Notes under the pieces: generated by a model
Databases searched by the model: none
The model's input: only the letters and a program-made list of their open reading frames with translations
What the model was told of the DNA's origin: nothing
IMG/VR virus record: IMGVR_UViG_3300044641_007713
Span: 1-36,465 of that record
Direction: 5' to 3' (one strand)
DNA from: a virus
Length of the DNA: 36,465 nt
Shown here: positions 3,941 through 22,682 of the stretch, piece after piece
Layout: each line of letters opens with the position of its first letter
Numbering within the stretch: the stretch's first letter is position 1
Translations under genes and position numbers: made by a program

Positions 3941-5068
3941 ATGACACAAAACAGTATCCGCCTTGGCGATCTCTTCAGGTACTACAAGGCCCTGCCCCAC
4001 CAGATGGCCGCCATCACCGAGCTGGAACAGGCCATCAACAAAGCCAACCCCAACATCTTGGGCCGCGATCAGGGCTGGTTCAAGACCTGGAGCGTAGCCG
4101 GCAAACAAAGCAACTTCCCCAACACTTGGGAAGGCGTTCTAGAAGCAGCCCGCGTAGCCGGCGCCAAATTCCCGGAACTCGTCAGCGCCCAATGGGCACT
4201 GGAATCCAACTACGGCAAACTTGTTTCCGGCCGCAACAACTTTTTCGGCCTAAAAGGCAACGGCACCGACACCAAAACACAAGAATTTATCAACAATCAA
4301 TGGATCTCGATTACAGACAGCTTCATTGACTTTCCCGATCTGTTGTCCTGTGTCATCTACCTTGTAGACCACTGGTACAAAGACTTCAAAACCTATAAAG
4401 GCTGCAATAACGCAAACACCCGCGAGGAAGCAGCCAAGTGGCTAGTCAAAGAAGGGTACGCCACTGACCCAAACTACGCCGGCAAACTGATCGCTTTGAT
4501 GGAACAACACACTGGCACTAACCCACCGGTAAAACCCAAAGAAAAAATTCTGAAGGTTGCCTACGAATACCAGCTGGGCCCGGACGATGGAGCAACAGGT
4601 TACCGCCAGTGCTTCAGTTCAAGTTGTGCCATGGTGGCCCGCTACTACGGAAAAATTTCGGGGGACTACGAATACAACAAACTACGCGCCCGCTTTGGCG
4701 ACACCACCGATCCCAAAGCCCAGATCGCTGCCCTCAAAGCACTGGGACTTAAAGCCACCTTTGAAATGGATGGCACTGCCCAAGAGCTGGAAGACGAGAT
4801 CAACGCTGGTCACCCAGTACCTGTTGGCTGGCTCCACCACGGCCCCATTTCCAGTCCCTCTGGCGGCGGCCACTGGAGCGTTGTAGTCGGTTACACCCCA
4901 ACCCACTTGATCTTTAATGATCCTTACGGAGAGGCAAATCTGTCTGCAGGCGGCTATGTAAGTCACAAAGGCGGTGCCGGTGTCGCCTACTCCAAGAAAA
5001 ACTGGCTGCCTAGGTGGCTCATCGAAGGCACCGACACAGGCTGGCTTATGAAAATCCGTCCCAGCTGA
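3941..5068 (+). CDS. Bifunctional endolysin: glucosaminidase plus C39-like peptidase
   Basis: The 375-residue protein has two catalytic domains. Residues about 60-192 match the N-acetylglucosaminidase (FlgJ/LYZ2-like) fold, with SAQWALESNYG carrying the catalytic Glu (about 88) and the FFGLKG motif that follows it. After a Pro/Lys linker (194-202), residues about 205-370 match a papain-like C39 peptidase fold: Cys224 in YRQCFSSSCAM, His311 in GGHWSVVVGY and Asp327 in FNDPYG. It would cleave both the glycan and the peptide part of peptidoglycan. A GAGGG ribosome-binding site stands 7 bases before the ATG. No signal peptide is seen, so release depends on a holin. Confidence 0.88.
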   Translation: MTQNSIRLGDLFRYYKALPHQMAAITELEQAINKANPNILGRDQGWFKTWSVAGKQSNFPNTWEGVLEAARVAGAKFPELVSAQWALESNYGKLVSGRNNFFGLKGNGTDTKTQEFINNQWISITDSFIDFPDLLSCVIYLVDHWYKDFKTYKGCNNANTREEAAKWLVKEGYATDPNYAGKLIALMEQHTGTNPPVKPKEKILKVAYEYQLGPDDGATGYRQCFSSSCAMVARYYGKISGDYEYNKLRARFGDTTDPKAQIAALKALGLKATFEMDGTAQELEDEINAGHPVPVGWLHHGPISSPSGGGHWSVVVGYTPTHLIFNDPYGEANLSAGGYVSHKGGAGVAYSKKNWLPRWLIEGTDTGWLMKIRPS

Positions 5069-9591: not shown

Positions 9592-10097
9592 CCTTTTGAC
9601 CTCTGTACTTTGGTGTCGCCGCAATAGCGGCCTGTTAGTGCGTAACTCTTAGCCGGCAACATCGACATCTTGTGCCAGACAATCTGCCCAATCCGCATCC
9701 CATGCCACAAAGCAACCGGATGCAACGACCGAGCATTTTGCAGCTCCAGCGTCAACCTGCCTTCGTACCCCGGATCCACGTACCCAGCCATCAGGTGCTC
9801 GATCCCCTCCCTGGCACGGGAAGACTTAAGCGCCAGCTGCCCGGCTATACAGTCCGGCACCTTGAAAAACTCCACCGTTTCTGCCAGCACAAACTGGTGC
9901 GGCTGTAGCAGGAAGGGCTGCTCTGGAGCAGTGCCGCGAAGCGACACCGACTCCATTTCACTGGTGCCTTCCACCTCAATCAGTAGATTCTCACCGAGTC
10001 TCACATCTAGACTCGCGGGATTCACAAGGGCCTCATCGAAAGGCGAGACAAGACCCCGCTTGCACAGGGTCCAGATCTCCATATCCGGGAGAATCAA
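9588..10097 (-). CDS. dcd: dCTP deaminase (Dcd family)
   Basis: A 169-residue enzyme of the dCTP deaminase/dUTPase fold, which turns dCTP into dUTP for dTTP supply. Family motifs present: PASLDVRLG (27-35), HQFVLAET (67-74), KSSRAREG (91-98), YVDPGYEGRLTLELQN (106-121) with the catalytic Glu118, and IGQIVWHKM. The reading begins with TTG at 10097, which gives a TTGA overlap with the HTH gene stop and an N-terminus (ILPDMEIW) typical of the family; ATG at 10082 is the alternative. Whether it is mono- or bifunctional (dUTPase) cannot be told here. Confidence 0.9.
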   Translation of the reverse strand: MILPDMEIWTLCKRGLVSPFDEALVNPASLDVRLGENLLIEVEGTSEMESVSLRGTAPEQPFLLQPHQFVLAETVEFFKVPDCIAGQLALKSSRAREGIEHLMAGYVDPGYEGRLTLELQNARSLHPVALWHGMRIGQIVWHKMSMLPAKSYALTGRYCGDTKVQRSKG

Positions 10098-10522
10098 GCG
10101 GTGATCTCCACAGAGGAAGGTGTGCCCTGGGACAGCTGGACATGCTTCCAGGTCTTACCCCACTTGATGCAGTTGATCGTGGTGGCGTGCACCCCAAACT
10201 CCGCGGCAATCTTGGCGACCGACTGGGTACGCGCTGCCAGAGCCCGCTTGATCTCCAGCACCTTCGCCTCAGTCAACACAGCCACCCCACGCTTTCCCTT
10301 GCGGCTGGACTTACGAGTCTTAACTTGAGACTTCGCGGTACGGACCTTCGCCGTACGCTTTGACGTACCAGCTGGAACAGCAATGGTTTGCTCGGTGCTG
10401 CTGGCCTCTAGGTCAACGTGCTGAGCGTTGTGCAGGATGGTGGCGATCTCCTGCTGGTTCTCGGTGATCGTCTGGAGGCTGTCGGCGATGATCCGGGCTT
10501 GTGTGTCAGAAAGGATGAGCAT
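10094..10522 (-). CDS. Helix-turn-helix DNA-binding protein
   Basis: A 142-residue protein with an N-terminal helical segment, a very basic central linker (SKRTAKVRTAKSQVKTRKSS) and a C-terminal helix-turn-helix: LTEAKVLEIKRALAARTQSV, then KIAAEFGVHATTINCIKWGK, typical of Hin/NUMOD1-like HTH modules (AxxFGVxxxTINxIxxGKxW). It may be a transcription regulator of the leftward block or the DNA-recognition remnant of a homing endonuclease. Upstream, the previous gene ends 29 bases away and TACATT is a possible -10. Confidence 0.75.
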   Translation of the reverse strand: MLILSDTQARIIADSLQTITENQQEIATILHNAQHVDLEASSTEQTIAVPAGTSKRTAKVRTAKSQVKTRKSSRKGKRGVAVLTEAKVLEIKRALAARTQSVAKIAAEFGVHATTINCIKWGKTWKHVQLSQGTPSSVEITA

Positions 10523-11047: not shown

Positions 11048-11283
11048 TGGTGCACCTCTACAGCAGGGCTGCGGCACTCAAGCTGTTCGAGCCACTGGTC
11101 CCAGCTCATCTTGAGGAACTGGGCAAGGTCGTCTAGCTGAGCAAGTTGTGCAAGGTGGTAGCCGGGATCCTGCCCAGCAGCCTCGGTTTCGACAATCGCC
11201 TGGCGCAGCAGGTGCTGGCTCCAAGTGACGGCGAAATACCACCTGGACAGGTTTTCGTTTGGAACGCTGGTGTGGGTAGCCAT
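11044..11283 (-). CDS. Small helical protein
   Basis: A 79-residue, Gln/Leu-rich helical protein (FAVTWSQHLLRQAIVETEAA, then HLAQLAQLDDLAQFLKMSWD). It is the first gene after a 219-base gap that carries promoter-like and palindromic elements, so it probably heads the segment running down to 5289. No family recognised. The ATG at 11283 lacks a clear ribosome-binding site. Confidence 0.6.
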   Translation of the reverse strand: MATHTSVPNENLSRWYFAVTWSQHLLRQAIVETEAAGQDPGYHLAQLAQLDDLAQFLKMSWDQWLEQLECRSPAVEVHQ

Positions 11284-11502
11284 GGGCGTGTGTAACAGAA
11301 ACAGAGCGAGAGCTGTCTGCCCTCGCCCTGTAGTGTTGCACAGAAACAGCCCCCGTCAACCCCGCTTTGTTGTAATCCGTTACACGGCCTTAGGCGCTAA
11401 GCTTTGGGTCCAATGATTCTCAGGAGTCACTGGGCATTCCGTAGTTGGGAGAGGCTGCGGTGAGGCCGGCACCTCGTGAGGACCGGCCACCTTTCCCCCT
11501 AA
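11284..11502. promoter_or_regulatory. Leader gap in leftward block with repeats and hairpins
   Basis: Between the 79-residue gene and the 29-residue gene lie: ACAGAAACAG twice (11295-11304 and 11340-11349); an inverted repeat TGTAA-TCCG-TTACA (11371-11384); a minus-strand TTGACG (about 11353-11358) that could be a -35; GCGAG/CTCGC hairpin arms just upstream of the start; and a GC-rich hairpin at 11464-11488. I read this as the control region between two leftward transcription units. No additional convincing gene is seen. Confidence 0.45.
11464..11488. terminator. GC-rich nested hairpin, possible terminator of leftward unit
   Basis: GGCCGG (11464-11469) pairs with CCGGCC (11483-11488) and CCTC pairs with GAGG inside it, giving a nested stable hairpin 15 bases after the stop of the 29-residue gene. 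No U-run follows on the minus strand, so termination without a U-tract, or mRNA protection, is the likely role. Confidence 0.4.
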
Positions 11503-11592
11503 TTACGGCAGGATCTTGGACGCCAGCCACAGCGCCAAGCAGCACGCCACGACGTAGCCCACCAGCAGATCGAACATCAGGGGCAGCGTCAT
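11503..11592 (-). CDS. 29-aa membrane micro protein
   Basis: ATG at 11592 overlaps the stop of the preceding gene (ATGA) and opens a 29-residue reading frame that is almost entirely one membrane span: MTLPLMFDLLVGYVVACC, ending LWLASKILP. Overlap coupling, hydrophobicity and a nearby downstream hairpin support it. Single-span micro proteins of phages can act as holins, superinfection-exclusion or envelope-targeted factors; none can be chosen here. Confidence 0.55.
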   Translation of the reverse strand: MTLPLMFDLLVGYVVACCLALWLASKILP

Positions 11593-11849
11593 TGGCCCTC
11601 CAGCTCGGCGGCGATGGCGAGAAGCTGATCGCGCACCTTGCAACGATTGCGAATGGCGGCAAGTGAAAAGGATCCTTTGTCGATGTCATTAGGCTCCGGC
11701 ACCACCTGATCCGCAGCAGCGCGAAGGGCACCGGCAACATCGGACTTGATCTGTCCAATCGACTTAGGACAGGCGTAATACGGCGCGTCATAGCGATTGA
11801 GCGTTACGGCATTTAGAACTGCTTCAGCGGCGGGAGACAGATCAGACAT
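11589..11849 (-). CDS. Small helical protein, picocyanophage type
   Basis: An 86-residue protein starting at ATG 11849 (TGATG with the upstream stop; GTG at 11852 would give GTGA). The pattern LSPAAEAVLNAV, then DVAGALRAAADQVVPEPN and a final helix with RDQLLAIAAELE is a recurring one among picocyanobacterial phage accessory proteins as I recall them. Fully helical, no catalytic motif. Function unknown. Confidence 0.7.
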   Translation of the reverse strand: MSDLSPAAEAVLNAVTLNRYDAPYYACPKSIGQIKSDVAGALRAAADQVVPEPNDIDKGSFSLAAIRNRCKVRDQLLAIAAELEGQ

Positions 11850-12985: not shown

Positions 12986-13305
12986 CGGCTGGCCTCCTGC
13001 TCAAGCCAGCGGACGGCGTTGTATCCGCAATCGTTCTCCCCCATCCACGCCGCCACCTCGCGGATTGCGGCGCGGGCTTCGCTACGCCAACCTTCCTGAG
13101 TGTTCGAGGGGCCGTAAACCGCCTTGACCAGCCGCTCCACCAGCGAGCCGGCAGGATCTGAACTATCTGGTTTTTCCGGATGGTTCGCCTCCAACGCCTC
13201 GACCCTGGCGCGGAGTTCTAAAGCAGCGCAAACAAGATCATTGCCGCCAAGTTGACGACGCTCAAGATTGACCCACTGCTCTGGCGTTGCTTTGTAGTCA
13301 GTCAT
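12982..13305 (-). CDS. Small helical protein with coiled coil
   Basis: A 107-residue protein: MTDYKATPEQWVNLERRQLG, then a short coiled coil ELRARVEALEANH, a Pro/Ser/Asp linker, and a C-terminal helical region with AREVAAW-type residues (AAIREVAAWMGENDCGYNAV). The N-terminal YKATPEQW block recurs at the start of many picocyanophage accessory proteins. Joined by ATGA overlaps on both sides. Function unknown. Confidence 0.7.
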   Translation of the reverse strand: MTDYKATPEQWVNLERRQLGGNDLVCAALELRARVEALEANHPEKPDSSDPAGSLVERLVKAVYGPSNTQEGWRSEARAAIREVAAWMGENDCGYNAVRWLEQEASR

Positions 13306-13568
13306 TCGGTGATTTCGTTGATGACGGCGTGTTCGCCAATGATTGCTAGGGCAGCCCGGTTGTAAGCCAGGGCTGCCTCGCGTTCGGTGGCATGGTTACC
13401 GAGGTAGTAGCGCCCACCCCGGTAACCCAGTGCTGCCCGCCACGGCAGCTTGGGGTTGGTACTGCGTGAGACACCTCGATAGACGCTGGCGCGGTTGGCA
13501 GGCCGCGGCCGATTGGCCATCGACAGGTAGTAAGCCTCCTTGGTGCCGCTGCAGTTGAAGTACCCCAC
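13302..13568 (-). CDS. AP2-domain DNA-binding protein
   Basis: An 88-residue protein consisting mainly of one AP2 domain: SVYRGVSRSTNPKLPWRAAL, then YRGGRYYLGNHATEREAALA and AYNRAALAIIGEHAVIN. AP2 domains bind DNA and in phages usually accompany HNH homing nucleases; the nuclease part is absent here. The reading starts with GTG at 13568; an ATG at 13520 with AAGGAGG 14 bases upstream is an alternative and keeps the whole AP2 domain. A GTGTTACACT element lies just upstream. Confidence 0.8.
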   Translation of the reverse strand: MGYFNCSGTKEAYYLSMANRPRPANRASVYRGVSRSTNPKLPWRAALGYRGGRYYLGNHATEREAALAYNRAALAIIGEHAVINEITE

Positions 13569-13917: not shown

Positions 13918-14118
13918 TTAAACACCGGTAACTCTGACGTCTGTGAGTTGGGCGTAGACCTCGGCACGTTCGGCTTCGGGCATGGTTTCCAGCTGGCGCT
14001 GTGTTTCCTGGGCAACCAACACAGCGAGAAGGTTGGAGACCTTTCGTATGGTCCGCTTGGACAACCACTCCAGCTCGTTCGCAGTCACGTCATTGCAAGA
14101 AAAAGTGATGCGGTTCAT
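13918..14118 (-). CDS. Small helical protein
   Basis: A 66-residue protein from the ATG at 14118 (GTG at 14142 is an alternative). It has a short strand (NRITFSCNDVTANELEWLSK) and then a helix-rich part (NLLAVLVAQETQRQLETMPE), reminiscent of a ribbon-helix-helix or Arc-like fold, but the match is weak. It follows the helicase-primase gene by 31 bases; TACAGT upstream (14143-14148, minus) could be a promoter element. Confidence 0.55.
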   Translation of the reverse strand: MNRITFSCNDVTANELEWLSKRTIRKVSNLLAVLVAQETQRQLETMPEAERAEVYAQLTDVRVTGV

Positions 14119-14149
14119 AAAAGGGCATACGAACCGCACCACTGTACAC

Positions 14150-16591
14150 CTAGTCCCACATCCGTGCGGCCTGTTCCATCAGGAAATCCAGCTCCAGTGG
14201 CGTGCGTTCCTCCAGCAAGTCGCAATCCTCTCGCGTGAATAGTGGGGTGTCCTGCTGTCCCAAACTCCGAGACTCACTGCGCTGCAACGCATCTGCCGGA
14301 TTCACCTGTCCCAGTTTGTCCCGTTCTGTCCCAACCTGTCCTTCTGGTGTCCCAGAACCGGGTTTGGGACAACTTGGGACAAAATCGGACAAACTGGGAC
14401 AACCCATTTCCTCAGATCCCGCTCCAGCACTGGATTTTTCCTCTTTGGGACAGCTAACACCTCCTCCCCCCCTGTGCGCGAGGACTGCGTAATACCGCTT
14501 ACTGGAACGATCCCCCTCAACAGCCACCAGTTTTCGATCAACCAACCGTTGGAGCGACTTGGCAATGGCGCTGACGCTCCCACCCAGTAGCGGATCAGCA
14601 TTCAGCTCCGCCTTGGTCATCGGCACCCCCTTGGTCCGCAGGCGCTGGAGCACCCGATCAATGATCGAAGCCGGACCCGCCGTATCCGTGTCATCCGCCG
14701 GCGGCAGATCCTGCAGCGAAAAGGTCAGGTCTTCCTTCTGGCGCAGGATCAGCTGCTTGCCCTCGTTCCCCTCCCGGCTCTTCCCGATCGTGATAAGCCG
14801 CGCAGAGGCCCCTACACGCTCCAGCTCGGCCTTCTCCGGGCGTCGGATGCCCCAAGACTCATCCACGGCATCCTGGAGCGCTGTGGTGCCCCTGAAGTCC
14901 CCACTCTTGGAAGCGTGGTGGATGAAAACGATGGTGGTTGCCGGGAAGCTCTCGCCGTTCTCCGCGCTGTACCAGTAGATCGGCTCGGCGTACTCGGCCT
15001 TGTTCTGGTCAAAGGCACAACCCCGCATACAGGCCGTCACCGAATCCCACACCACGAGCTTGGGGCGATACTCCTCGATCTGCTGGATAAACCACGGATA
15101 CCAAAGCATCGACACCTTGTTCCTCACGATCACCGGATCGTTCGCCGTGAAATCCAGATCCTCAAACTGCTTCCGAATCCGCCGGCTGTTCTGGTCCCCG
15201 TTCAACCAAAGCACCGTGCCTTGCTCGACTGGAACTTCCTGCCCCCTAACCGAAAAAGGCGTCCCCCTGGCAATGTGCTGAGCCAGCGTCAAAACGGCCA
15301 TCGTTTTGCCACAGCCACCACGACCGTGCATCAACACAGTCCCCGGCTTAGGCAACAGCTCTGGAATCAAGTATTCAATCGGCGTTTCCTCAGTAGCAAA
15401 AATCTCTTGCAAAGAGCCTCCATGCGAACCACGGCGAAACTCCTGATCAGCAATTAACAGCCGCACCACAGCCGCTGCATCGCGGTAACCAGCCTCCTGC
15501 GCAATTTCATGCAACTTGTGCTGCACTTCAGACGGGTTAGGCAGTTTCATGGCCGCCTCAGCCCGCTTGACAATTTCCTCGTGCGAAAGACCGACGGTAC
15601 GGAACCGCTGCACCCGGTCCTGCTCAGCCTCGGTAACGATCTTGCGCAGATCCTCCGACAACCACACGCGGCCCGGCATCTGCTGGTCCGCCATCCAGAA
15701 CAGCGTCCCAAGGCTCACCGGCCCCTTCCTAAAGCTCTTCCACACCTCCTCACAGGGGTTGGCACCGGCCCATTCATCGGCGTACTCAGGATCCTCAGCC
15801 GACCACGCCGCCCACAACGTCAACCCCAGGTCAGTGGGCAACTCGCTGTGGATCGCCATACCCACCTTCACCCAATGATCCCGGCTACCAGCCCCCTGCC
15901 CTGGAATCACCCGCAACGCCGACTGCACAATCTCAGCCACCTCAGCCGGGTCTCTATCTGAGAAATCCAGCGCCTTGCGGTTCTTAATGAAGCCACCATC
16001 AGCCACCTCTTTGCCGCAGCGCTCGCGCATCTCCGCCAGCAACCACGCTGGAGCCTCTGGAATGACCTCCAGATCGCCCTCAAAACCGTACTGCCCCTCT
16101 GGCGCCTTCCCATCGTTAGAGCCCGGATAAGCCCCGTACAGAAGCCCCTGGCGGCCCCACAGCACCTCATACCCAGCCCCTGTATCCGACAACCCAAAAC
16201 CCTGCACCTCAGCCCACAGCGCCTCAGGCACCCGGAACAGGTACTTCGCCGCATTGGCCTTGGTGGACGTAACGACTGGAGCACCATCCAGCGTCTCGCC
16301 CCACTTTTTCTTGAGACGGCTGAGATTCCGATCCACATCGAGAATCACGAGTCCCGCGCTGCGAGGCCCGGTAAACACACCGACCGCCCGAAACACATCC
16401 GGCTTCCGCTCGATCTGGAGCACCACGTCCGCCGGCCCCATCACCTGATGGTGACTCCGCTCTAACGGCGCCTTGCCCTTGCTCTCCTTACCGGACTGGA
16501 GCTTGCTGCCAGCCCTGTAAATCGGCGCGTACGCCATGCCCACCGGCAATTGGCGCACAAAATTCAACAGCTGTTGCGTCTCACTGGACAC
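14150..16591 (-). CDS. Bifunctional primase-polymerase / RepA-like helicase
   Basis: An 813-residue replication protein. The prim-pol domain (about 15-190) has the metal site LVILDVDR (Asp85, Asp87). A PriCT-type domain follows (about 210-310: SRDHWVKVGMAIHSE, WAAWSAEDPEY, EEVWKSF). The RecA-like helicase domain (about 400-620) has Walker A GRGGCGKT (423-430), Walker B LVVWDS (512-517) and IHHASKSGDFRGTTA. A winged-helix segment (about 640-710) and a Pro/Gly-rich linker end in a helix. Residues about 731-762 of the linker are encoded by the TGTCCC/GGGACA array. GTG start at 16591 with TAGGAG nine bases upstream. It primes and unwinds for PolA. Confidence 0.9.
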   Translation of the reverse strand: MSSETQQLLNFVRQLPVGMAYAPIYRAGSKLQSGKESKGKAPLERSHHQVMGPADVVLQIERKPDVFRAVGVFTGPRSAGLVILDVDRNLSRLKKKWGETLDGAPVVTSTKANAAKYLFRVPEALWAEVQGFGLSDTGAGYEVLWGRQGLLYGAYPGSNDGKAPEGQYGFEGDLEVIPEAPAWLLAEMRERCGKEVADGGFIKNRKALDFSDRDPAEVAEIVQSALRVIPGQGAGSRDHWVKVGMAIHSELPTDLGLTLWAAWSAEDPEYADEWAGANPCEEVWKSFRKGPVSLGTLFWMADQQMPGRVWLSEDLRKIVTEAEQDRVQRFRTVGLSHEEIVKRAEAAMKLPNPSEVQHKLHEIAQEAGYRDAAAVVRLLIADQEFRRGSHGGSLQEIFATEETPIEYLIPELLPKPGTVLMHGRGGCGKTMAVLTLAQHIARGTPFSVRGQEVPVEQGTVLWLNGDQNSRRIRKQFEDLDFTANDPVIVRNKVSMLWYPWFIQQIEEYRPKLVVWDSVTACMRGCAFDQNKAEYAEPIYWYSAENGESFPATTIVFIHHASKSGDFRGTTALQDAVDESWGIRRPEKAELERVGASARLITIGKSREGNEGKQLILRQKEDLTFSLQDLPPADDTDTAGPASIIDRVLQRLRTKGVPMTKAELNADPLLGGSVSAIAKSLQRLVDRKLVAVEGDRSSKRYYAVLAHRGGGGVSCPKEEKSSAGAGSEEMGCPSLSDFVPSCPKPGSGTPEGQVGTERDKLGQVNPADALQRSESRSLGQQDTPLFTREDCDLLEERTPLELDFLMEQAARMWD
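14248..14452. repeat. Symmetric TGTCCC / GGGACA iteron array, candidate origin
   Basis: On the plus strand TGTCCC-type elements start at 14307, 14317, 14327, 14337 and 14348; inverted GGGACA-type elements (TGGGACA or TCGGACA) start at 14365, 14375, 14385 and 14395. Steps are 10 bases (one 11), one helical turn. Outlying copies at 14256-14262 (TGTCCCA) and 14446-14452 (TGGGACA) are placed symmetrically around the same centre, about 14354; a partial TGTCCT lies at 14248. A 13-bp perfect arm TCCCAGTTTGTCC (14309-14321) pairs with 14387-14399. A 10-base period is not a codon multiple, so the constraint acts on DNA. Candidate replication origin or partition-type site. Confidence 0.75.
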
Positions 16592-16736
16592 AGTGGTAGA
16601 CTCCTACACGAGAATGTTCACTCCGCCTCACCGCCTTCTGGCAGTGGGGCGTTTTTGTAGGGTAGCCCCCTGCGTCAACCCGTGTTACTGTAGTAGACGT
16701 TGCCCCTCAGGCGACCATCAAACACCAGTAACCGCA
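16592..16736. promoter_or_regulatory. Divergent spacer between helicase-primase and ssDNA-binding genes
   Basis: This 145-base gap separates the leftward replication block from the rightward early genes. It must hold promoters for both. Visible elements: a plus-oriented intrinsic terminator (16624-16656), TGTTACTGTAGTAG at 16683-16696 which could supply a rightward -10 (TACTGT or TAGTAG), and TAGGAG as the ribosome-binding site for the leftward GTG. No separate gene is convincing. Confidence 0.5.
16624..16656 (+). terminator. Intrinsic terminator in divergent spacer, plus orientation
   Basis: CGCCTCACCGCC (16624-16635) pairs with GGCAGTGGGGCG (16640-16651), with one mismatch and one wobble and a TTCT loop, followed by TTTTT (16652-16656). 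It would stop rightward transcripts, yet no rightward gene lies just upstream, so it may end a short leader or small RNA or block antisense reading from the leftward block. Confidence 0.75.
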
Positions 16737-17318
16737 ATGGGTTTCCTTTCCAAGCAAGCATCAGCCAACGTCTCCAGCTCCGGTAGCGGCGGCGGCTACC
16801 TGCAAGTCTCCAAACTCCCCGATGGCGGCAGCGTCCGCTTCGCCCTGCTGTCCGACACCCCCCTCGAGTTCTATGAGTGCTGGGGCACCTGCGACGGCGC
16901 CACCAAGCCCTTCCGCTTCGACCACGAACCCACCGAAGGCGACCTCAAGGTGGAGATGGGTGACTTCGAGCCCCGCGAAGGCCGCGGCGGCCCTGGTACC
17001 GCCGACGTGAAGTTCGCCATCGCCGTCCCCGTCTACAACTTCGACACCGGCAACGTCCAAGTCCTCTCCCTAACCCAAAAGTCCATCCTCAAAGAGCTGG
17101 ATTCGATCAGCCAAATGGAGGATTACGACGACCTGCTTGCCTGGGACTTCAGCCTCAGCAAAAAAGGCTCCGGCCTCCTGACTGAGTACACCCTGCGCCC
17201 CGTCCCCCGCAAGAAAGGCGCCCAAGAGCACATCGACGCTGCCTGGATCGAGGCCAAGTCCGCCGGCTTCGACTTGGAACGCCTGCTGACCGGCGGCAAC
17301 CCATTCAAGGCTGCCTAA
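16737..17318 (+). CDS. Single-stranded DNA-binding protein, cyanophage type
   Basis: A 193-residue protein starting at ATG 16737 (the frame is open further upstream but that part contains the terminator). N-terminal Ser/Gly linker, then a beta-rich core (YLQVSKLPDGGSVRFALLSD, FECWGTC-like, FRFDHEP), VPVYNFDTGNVQVLSLTQKS with a following acidic helix, and a KKGSGLLTEYTL strand. The LSLTQKSILKEL and DFSLSKKGSG blocks resemble phage ssDNA-binding proteins that cooperate with PolA; the call is by pattern and by its place next to prim-pol and nuclease genes. An intrinsic terminator follows 28 bases after the stop. Confidence 0.7.
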   Translation: MGFLSKQASANVSSSGSGGGYLQVSKLPDGGSVRFALLSDTPLEFYECWGTCDGATKPFRFDHEPTEGDLKVEMGDFEPREGRGGPGTADVKFAIAVPVYNFDTGNVQVLSLTQKSILKELDSISQMEDYDDLLAWDFSLSKKGSGLLTEYTLRPVPRKKGAQEHIDAAWIEAKSAGFDLERLLTGGNPFKAA

Positions 17319-21431: not shown

Positions 21432-22682
21432 ATGGCCGATTCTGCTGGAGCCCTTACCCTTCGCCACGCCCAAGGTGAGGTATTTACCAGCCGAAAACGC
21501 TTCCGCGTCCTCGTTGCAGGCCGCCGCTTCGGCAAAAGCTATCTCTCCTGTATCGAACTTCTGCGTGGAGCCATCGAAAAACCGGGCGAAACCTTTTTCT
21601 ACTGCGCCCCGACGTACCGAATGGCGAAGGACATCGCCTGGAAAGCCCTCAAAAAGCTCGTCCCTCGCGCCTGGATCAAGTCAAAGAACGAAACCGACCT
21701 CAAGCTGGAACTCGTCAACGGTTCCACCATCGAATTAAAGGGCACGGAAAACGCAATGGCCCTGCGCGGCCGCAGCCTTTCGGGCGTGGTGCTGGATGAA
21801 GCCGCCTTCATGGACCCCGAGGTCTGGTTCGAGGTGATCCGTCCCGCCCTCGCCGACAAACAAGGCTGGGCCCTCTTCATCTCCACCCCTGACGGCACCG
21901 CCAGCTGGTTCTACGACCTCTGGTGTTACGCCGACGAAGGCGACTCCAACTGGAGCCGCTGGCAATTCACCACCATCGACGGCGACAACGTCCCCCCAGA
22001 GGAAATCGAAGCCGCCCGCAGCCAACTTGACCCTCGCACCTTCCGCCAAGAATTCGAGGCCAGCTTTGAAAACCTCAGCGGCCTCGTCGCCATCAGCTTC
22101 TCGGACGACAACATCGACAAAGTCGTCCAAGACCTACCCGTTCTACCCCTCCTGCTGGGGGTGGACTTCAACATCGACCCCATGTCCGGCATCTGCGCGG
22201 TCAAAAAAGGCGATGTCCTCTGGGTCTTCGACGAAATCATCATGACCGGCGGCGCCACCACCTGGGATTTCTGCGAAGAAGTCCAATCCCGCTATGGCGT
22301 GGAGCGCCGCATCATCGCCTGCCCCGACCCCACGGGCGGCGCCCGCAAAACCGCCGGCGTTGGCGCCACCGACCACAACATCCTGCGCAAATCCGGCTTC
22401 ACAGTTTCCAGCCCCCGCTCCCCCTGGAAAATCCGCGACAAAATCACCTGCGTCAACACCGCCCTTCTCGATGCCTCTGGAACCCGCCGCCTCTTCATCC
22501 ACCCCCGCTGCAAAGAACTAATCAAATCCCTCCGCACCCTGACCTACGCCCCCGGAACTGGCCTCCCCAACAAAAACCTCGGCGTAGACCACGCCTTCGA
22601 CGCCCTGGGATACCTCTGCCTACAAACCTTCAACCTCGCCAAACCAGAATCCATGGCCCCTACCAACTATCGTGTGTGGTAA
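21432..22682 (+). CDS. terL: Terminase large subunit
   Basis: A 416-residue DNA-packaging motor ATPase/nuclease. The ATPase domain has Walker A VAGRRFGKS (28-36), Walker B GVVLDEAAF (118-126, Asp122, Glu123) and the coupling motif FISTPDG (149-154). The RNase H-like nuclease domain has GVDFNIDP (Asp245), CPDPTG (Asp299) and VDHAFDALGYL (Asp386/Asp390). It cuts concatemeric DNA and drives it into the prohead with the small subunit and portal. The ATG at 21432 follows CTACTACAAA. Short for the family but complete. Confidence 0.95.
   Translation: MADSAGALTLRHAQGEVFTSRKRFRVLVAGRRFGKSYLSCIELLRGAIEKPGETFFYCAPTYRMAKDIAWKALKKLVPRAWIKSKNETDLKLELVNGSTIELKGTENAMALRGRSLSGVVLDEAAFMDPEVWFEVIRPALADKQGWALFISTPDGTASWFYDLWCYADEGDSNWSRWQFTTIDGDNVPPEEIEAARSQLDPRTFRQEFEASFENLSGLVAISFSDDNIDKVVQDLPVLPLLLGVDFNIDPMSGICAVKKGDVLWVFDEIIMTGGATTWDFCEEVQSRYGVERRIIACPDPTGGARKTAGVGATDHNILRKSGFTVSSPRSPWKIRDKITCVNTALLDASGTRRLFIHPRCKELIKSLRTLTYAPGTGLPNKNLGVDHAFDALGYLCLQTFNLAKPESMAPTNYRVW

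Follow-up and report, generated by a model that had tools for sequence, protein, structure and literature searches.

A candidate iteron-type replication origin within a viral helicase-primase gene

The helicase-primase gene and the repeat array in its linker

The DNA analysed in this study, referred to below as the window, is the whole 36,465-nt stretch (positions 1-36,465) of the IMG/VR virus record IMGVR_UViG_3300044641_007713, a virus that probably infects freshwater cyanobacteria. The minus strand carries at 14150..16591 a helicase-primase gene encoding 813 aa, which was recognised from its open reading frame, Pfam domains, an AlphaFold model and a PDB match. The following domains were found in this order, all encoded on the minus strand: a Prim-Pol domain (residues 24-183, 16043..16522; PF09250, E 2e-5); a PriCT-2 domain (residues 223-301, 15689..15925; PF08707, E 3e-16); an AAA_25 helicase domain of the RSF1010 RepA type (residues 399-565, 14897..15397; PF13481, E 1e-21); a winged helix (residues 643-702, 14486..14665), which is proposed to bind the iterons described below; a disordered linker (residues 706-796, 14204..14476); and a C-terminal helix (residues 798-812, 14156..14200). 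Directly past the gene, a sequence scan revealed a terminator-like hairpin at 14104..14143, also on the minus strand.

The AlphaFold model was built from 44 sequences and its overall confidence was moderate (mean pLDDT 69). The helicase part matched PDB 1g8y, the RSF1010 RepA protein, with a TM-score of 0.70 by target, and both the AAA_25 domain and this fold place the protein among the RSF1010 RepA-type helicases. The winged helix showed the order H-H-H-beta-beta in the full model as well as in a domain-only model (domain mean pLDDT 84.5), and its PDB neighbours, none of them at E <0.001, were mostly winged-helix domains, many from DNA-binding regulators. Its recognition helix (residues 673-685, 14537..14575) was assigned from the model and from the residue-flank comparison given below. 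The linker had a pLDDT below 30 across most of its length, which bore out the first-pass annotation in placing the array in a disordered segment between the winged helix and the terminal helix. The cyanobacterial plasmid Rep protein CyRepA1 could be aligned over just 29% of the initiator, with ~30% identity.

Several other genes of the window were noted. A divergent neighbour gene (16536-17318) has weak similarity to phage single-strand DNA-binding proteins, the terminase large subunit (21432-22682) is ~43% identical to its Vibrio phage and cyanophage S-2L counterparts, and two small genes (13302-13568 and 10094-10522) show an AP2 domain under the Pfam cut-off together with similarity to HNH/homing endonucleases.

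The coding DNA of the linker, near the 3' end of the gene, holds 12 TGTCC/GGACA cores (7 TGTCC and 5 GGACA) within 14248-14452. Read on the plus strand, two outer left elements (14248..14260), TGTCCT at 14248 and TGTCCC at 14256, are followed by a left arm of five TGTCC(C/T) elements (14307..14352) starting at 14307, 14317, 14327, 14337 and 14348, a right arm of four GGACA cores (14367..14401) starting at 14367, 14377, 14387 and 14397, and an outer right GGACA (14448..14452). Variant elements are TGTCCT at 14248 and 14337 and CGGACA at 14386. The core-to-core steps are 10, 10, 10 and 11 bp in the left arm and 10, 10 and 10 bp in the right arm, and five pairs (14256/14448, 14307/14397, 14317/14387, 14327/14377 and 14337/14367) mirror each other about exactly 14354.0, the dyad centre (14354..14354). 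These elements are conserved in relatives, with the same arrangement. The left-arm TGTCCC-type starts, the steps of about 10 bases and the symmetry about a centre near 14354, outlying copies included, had all been given in the first-pass annotation and agreed with the sequence, except that 14337 reads TGTCCT; the right-arm elements were likewise real, at coordinates that had been set too low, by one base for GGGACA and by two for the core.

When synonymous codons were shuffled 2000 times, at most 8 cores per 220 bp and 3 mirrored pairs were obtained, against 12 and 5 observed, and mononucleotide shuffles reached at most 4. Moreover, GGGACA forms the top 6-mer cluster of the window, and the cores occupy all three reading frames. 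The occupation of all frames and the synonymous shuffles ruled out repeats of the protein as the source of the array, as the earlier annotation had argued.

Conservation of the array and its recurrence at helicase genes

A protein search with the helicase-primase recovered 80 related viral loci, and wherever the end of the gene was complete the array was present, even at ~60% protein identity. The elements of window-like relatives are mirrored to the base, and another exact mirror layout was found in a more distant group (~61% identity), exact or near-exact dyads being present in most genomes of both types. In L052, for example, the layout is 165R, 210F, 226R, 236R, then 262F, 272F, 288R and 333F. 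Among window-like genomes, conservation was 0.98 for core bases, 0.83-0.85 for the bases between cores and 0.72 for the gene and protein tail, and the elements thus persist at the DNA level, which had been proposed as a check. Matches to a triple-GGACA pattern, in genomes having one, were confined to the array, and the reversed control pattern was never found. In L423-L439, which are ~78% identical to L083, GGTAAC replaces GGGACA at the same site. Because the cores stand in all frames, are conserved above the surrounding coding sequence and are kept wherever the gene end of a relative is complete, the array is a real feature at the DNA level that lies inside a gene.

The two arms also form an inverted repeat with 35-nt arms that are 86% complementary, and a stem-loop just past a similar initiator gene is needed by the archaeal plasmid pRN1 (PMC4234260). 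The repeats might accordingly be incidental to a functional element that takes the form of a long stem-loop or cruciform, like the one proposed for pRN1. However, outside the cores the complementarity of the arms was 0.604 within a genome and 0.611 between the arms of different genomes, which gives no sign of selection for a cruciform, and the elements have mixed orientations in several relatives. The cruciform suggested in the first-pass annotation was rejected on the lack of arm covariation beyond the core, and a functional stem-loop is considered very unlikely.

Arrays of this kind were also found beyond the family of the window. A search at the DNA level for three TTTGTCC(C) elements yielded 19 viral contigs, and in most of those examined the array was in, just past or within ~0.7 kb of a replication helicase gene, with L084 as an exception. 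The helicases were AAA_25 proteins with Prim-Pol/PriCT-1, Prim-Pol/PriCT-2, Toprim or no recognised primase, and in L099 the array lies by a Prim-Pol/DUF5906 protein; TGTCCC arrays by AAA_25 genes thus occur in unrelated viral contigs with differing primase parts. Furthermore, of 80 viral loci with four spaced TGTCC copies, 20 had an AAA_25 gene no more than 1 kb away (roughly two thirds of them being from the window's own family), compared with 1 of 76 for a TGCCT control. Raw counts of spaced 5-mer matches mean little, since the same-composition control also matched 76 viral contigs. In bacterial genomes, none of 80 matches to the four-copy TGTCC pattern was near an AAA_25 gene and many were simple tandem repeats, so that spaced TGTCC copies are not diagnostic by themselves. 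Apparently dispersed TGTCC repeats with 10-bp steps were seen on many contigs of one alphaproteobacterial genome (L107, L111, L126, L145-L147, L151, L154 and L175), and such repeats were also noted in Hyphomonas (L177).

In the converse test, 19 phage or plasmid loci were chosen by the helicase protein only, and 5 of them had clear arrays, 3 weak ones and 11 none. All five clear arrays are located between 437 bp upstream and 244 bp downstream of the point where the helicase gene ends, and their motifs are GGGACA in a Manatee Spring phage and E. coli phage Bas85, GTATAA in Roseobacter phage CRP-831, GTGACA in Rhizobium phage RHph_X2_25 and AGTGAA (TTCACT) in plasmid pATHE01. In pATHE01 the array is inside the helicase gene, in linker coding directly after a Pfam-recognised winged helix, and is the strongest 6-mer cluster of the plasmid. 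The weak arrays, in two cyanobacterial plasmids and phage sortsyn, lie in the same zone, and in this protein-chosen set no array was found at the helicase gene of the named cyanophages S-CBS4 and Pam2, which have a related helicase. Exact dyad symmetry is not common to the more distant arrays. About 140 phage-collection records hold most of the Bas85 region. In the Sodalis phage SO-1, a Dhillonvirus (GQ502199), repeat regions are annotated at two sites, one of which follows the helicase gene; this one, region B, is described as direct, inverted and palindromic repeats directly after the helicase/primase gene. Similar GGGACA-containing repeats were seen at both sites of SO-1, after the helicase gene (11214-11597) and before the tape-measure gene (40178-40657). 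A search of the literature on TGTCC/GGACA iterons returned nothing relevant.

Some further repeats were observed during these comparisons. In cyanophage S-2L, the densest GGCAC/GTGCC cluster of the genome (23061-23283), with 8 copies within 350 bp, starts 23 bp past the PrimPol gene, the same position as that of other helicase-gene arrays. In a Synechococcus elongatus plasmid, 16 GTTAA/TTAAC copies (4370-4639) lie between CyRepA1 plasmid genes and represent an origin candidate. Several unrelated arrays (L083, L230, L092 and L427) have among their iterons a hairpin with a T/A-rich loop (e.g. CCCCCCCTTTAGGGGGGG), which is possibly a terminator or a priming hairpin.

Joint variation of the recognition helix and the array

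The five bases 5' of the GGACA core (-5 to -1) form a flank that is genome-specific and common to most copies within a genome, and recognition-helix residues S674, A675 and A677 vary jointly with it. Helices of the type [S/N]AI[A/S]K are paired with a TTG flank, [E/D]xIRK with a C-type flank, AAIGK with AAAA, TAIRK with AGGTG, AGIRK with CAGTG or CAGCT, and xxIKK with GGGG. With iteron classes assigned by hand, no mismatched combination was found in 58 distinct sequences, and on a tree built from the part of the protein that precedes the winged helix, helix type and iteron type each need at least 12 changes. All independent pairs conform to the match, their number being too small for a significant sign test. 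Among the columns outside the linker, S674 showed the strongest association with iteron type when all sequences were compared.

Helix and array also change together among near-identical genomes. Identity between L078 and L079, for example, is 93-100% along most of the sequence upstream, drops to 45-70% in the segment spanning winged helix and array, and recovers to 87-100% beyond it. For genome pairs with an upstream identity of 85% or more, iteron distance correlated with helix-domain distance (rho 0.72) far more than with the distance of the protein tail (0.32) or of the upstream protein (0.27). Since only ~100-400 bp separate the winged helix from the array, recombination alone could move the two together; phage genomes are mosaic, and other identity drops were also present in the comparison of near-identical genomes. 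A match that arose solely because neighbours recombine together, with no link between array and helix, is nevertheless very improbable, given the complete lack of mismatches over so many changes, the much looser association of the protein tail just beyond the array with iteron type, and the position of the strongest non-linker column in the recognition helix itself.

Another host or phage protein, such as a partition, packaging or nucleoid protein, might also be the one that binds the array, as dyad arrays can be centromeres and centromere-binding proteins are among the PDB neighbours of the winged-helix fold. The recurrence of arrays at the 3' end of AAA_25 helicase genes, and a flank that tracks residues of the helicase's own recognition helix, make such a binder improbable. 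On the concordance of helix and iteron, their joint exchange and the recurrence of arrays beside AAA_25 helicase genes, the array is most likely recognised by the winged helix of the encoded protein.

The array as a candidate origin and its known counterparts

To our knowledge, the origins of most phages are unknown. In this study, we favour the reading, with a probability of roughly two in three, that the array is an iteron-type replication origin within the gene of its own initiator. In the proposed mechanism, copies of the helicase-primase would use their C-terminal winged helices to bind the GGACA cores together with the genome-specific flanks 5' of them, and the mirror layout and one-turn spacing would put the bound molecules on one face of the DNA as two opposed sets. 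From these, two RepA-type hexamers might be assembled head to head, which would open the duplex for priming by the Prim-Pol domain. Binding, the loading of two hexamers, strand opening and the start of replication at this site are steps that we infer, and origin activity is suggested by position, architecture and precedent. The proposal of an intragenic origin bound by the encoded protein, made in the first-pass annotation, is retained here as most likely in its recognition part and as the favoured reading in its origin part.

The short repeats about one helical turn apart, in a cluster unique in the genome, are as in iteron-type origins, in which an AT-rich stretch serves unwinding; no consistent AT-rich stretch was found beside the array. 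The extremum of cumulative GC skew that had been put forward as a check was likewise absent, the skew being nearly monotonic in the window and in four relatives, although this test is weak in phages because skew follows the coding strand. Iterons often have second roles such as autoregulation, copy control or exclusion, and the concordance of helix and iteron shows at most recognition, so that the winged helix might bind the array as a site of one of these kinds and not as an origin. However, the array lies ~2.1-2.3 kb from the gene start, no sigma-70 promoter-like site was found at it, and the terminator-like hairpin follows directly past the gene. Moreover, an origin must exist in pATHE01, and the strongest array of this plasmid is the one within the helicase gene. 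A purely regulatory site is thus unlikely.

The origin reading may be extended. It is quite conceivable, if still short of probable, that the winged helix and the iteron array act together as exchangeable specificity cassettes and that this design, with other motifs, is a widespread type of phage and plasmid origin. The same tentative reading holds that near-identical phages would fall into different origin-recognition groups, like plasmid incompatibility groups, by segment swapping, and that a common GGACA core would be combined with a readable helix-to-flank code, in which, for instance, an acidic residue 674 goes with C before the core and a lysine at 677 with GGGG. That helix and array are exchanged together suggests that selection acts on origin specificity as such, perhaps directed against cross-replication or satellites. 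If these proposals are true, inspecting the 3' end of the helicase gene would directly locate the origin in many phages and some plasmids, and a few residues of the helix would encode initiator specificity. Tests in laboratory strains are feasible, since a comparable array is present in Dhillonvirus phages of E. coli from the BASEL collection (Bas85).

Several known systems share parts of this arrangement. The lambda origin lies inside gene O, with iterons in the coding sequence of their own binder; unlike the window protein, lambda O is not known to be a helicase or primase, and no comparable mirror arrangement is known in lambda. P4 alpha has an SF3-type helicase and the P4 origin lies outside the gene, whereas the window protein has a RecA-fold AAA_25 helicase and the array inside its gene. 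Both proteins join a primase, a helicase and a C-terminal winged helix in one chain, the primase being of the Toprim type in P4 alpha and Prim-Pol with PriCT-2 in the window protein. In P4 alpha this winged helix binds the origin repeats (PMC4234260); for the window protein, the observations that bear on such binding are indirect, namely helix-iteron concordance and joint exchange, obtained by sequence comparison. ORF904 of pRN1 is likewise composed of Prim-Pol, helicase and C-terminal winged helix, and a required origin element lies directly downstream of its gene (PMC4234260). It differs in its SF3 helicase and in a 100-bp stem-loop without iterons, and the conservation by pairing expected of such a stem-loop was not seen in the arms of the array. 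In RSF1010, iterons are bound by RepC, and helicase and iteron-binding proteins are separate (PMC4234260). RSF1010 RepA is the closest solved single-domain helicase fold, and the functions divided there among RepA, RepC and RepB' are fused in the window protein.

A repeat region after a helicase gene is already annotated in Dhillonvirus SO-1, and its region B resembles the array in holding GGGACA repeats adjoining the helicase/primase gene, but it is intergenic, not exactly mirrored and accompanied by a second copy (region A) elsewhere in the genome. These two regions recall P4, which has a two-part origin. The Caldicellulosiruptor bescii plasmid pATHE01 shares the order of Prim-Pol, AAA_25 and winged helix followed by an intragenic inverted array in the linker, and differs in its TTCACT motif, 9-bp steps and lack of an exact dyad. 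Taken together, the window combines features of P4, pRN1, RSF1010 and lambda, in that an initiator gene bears a mirror-symmetric array which its own product most likely binds.
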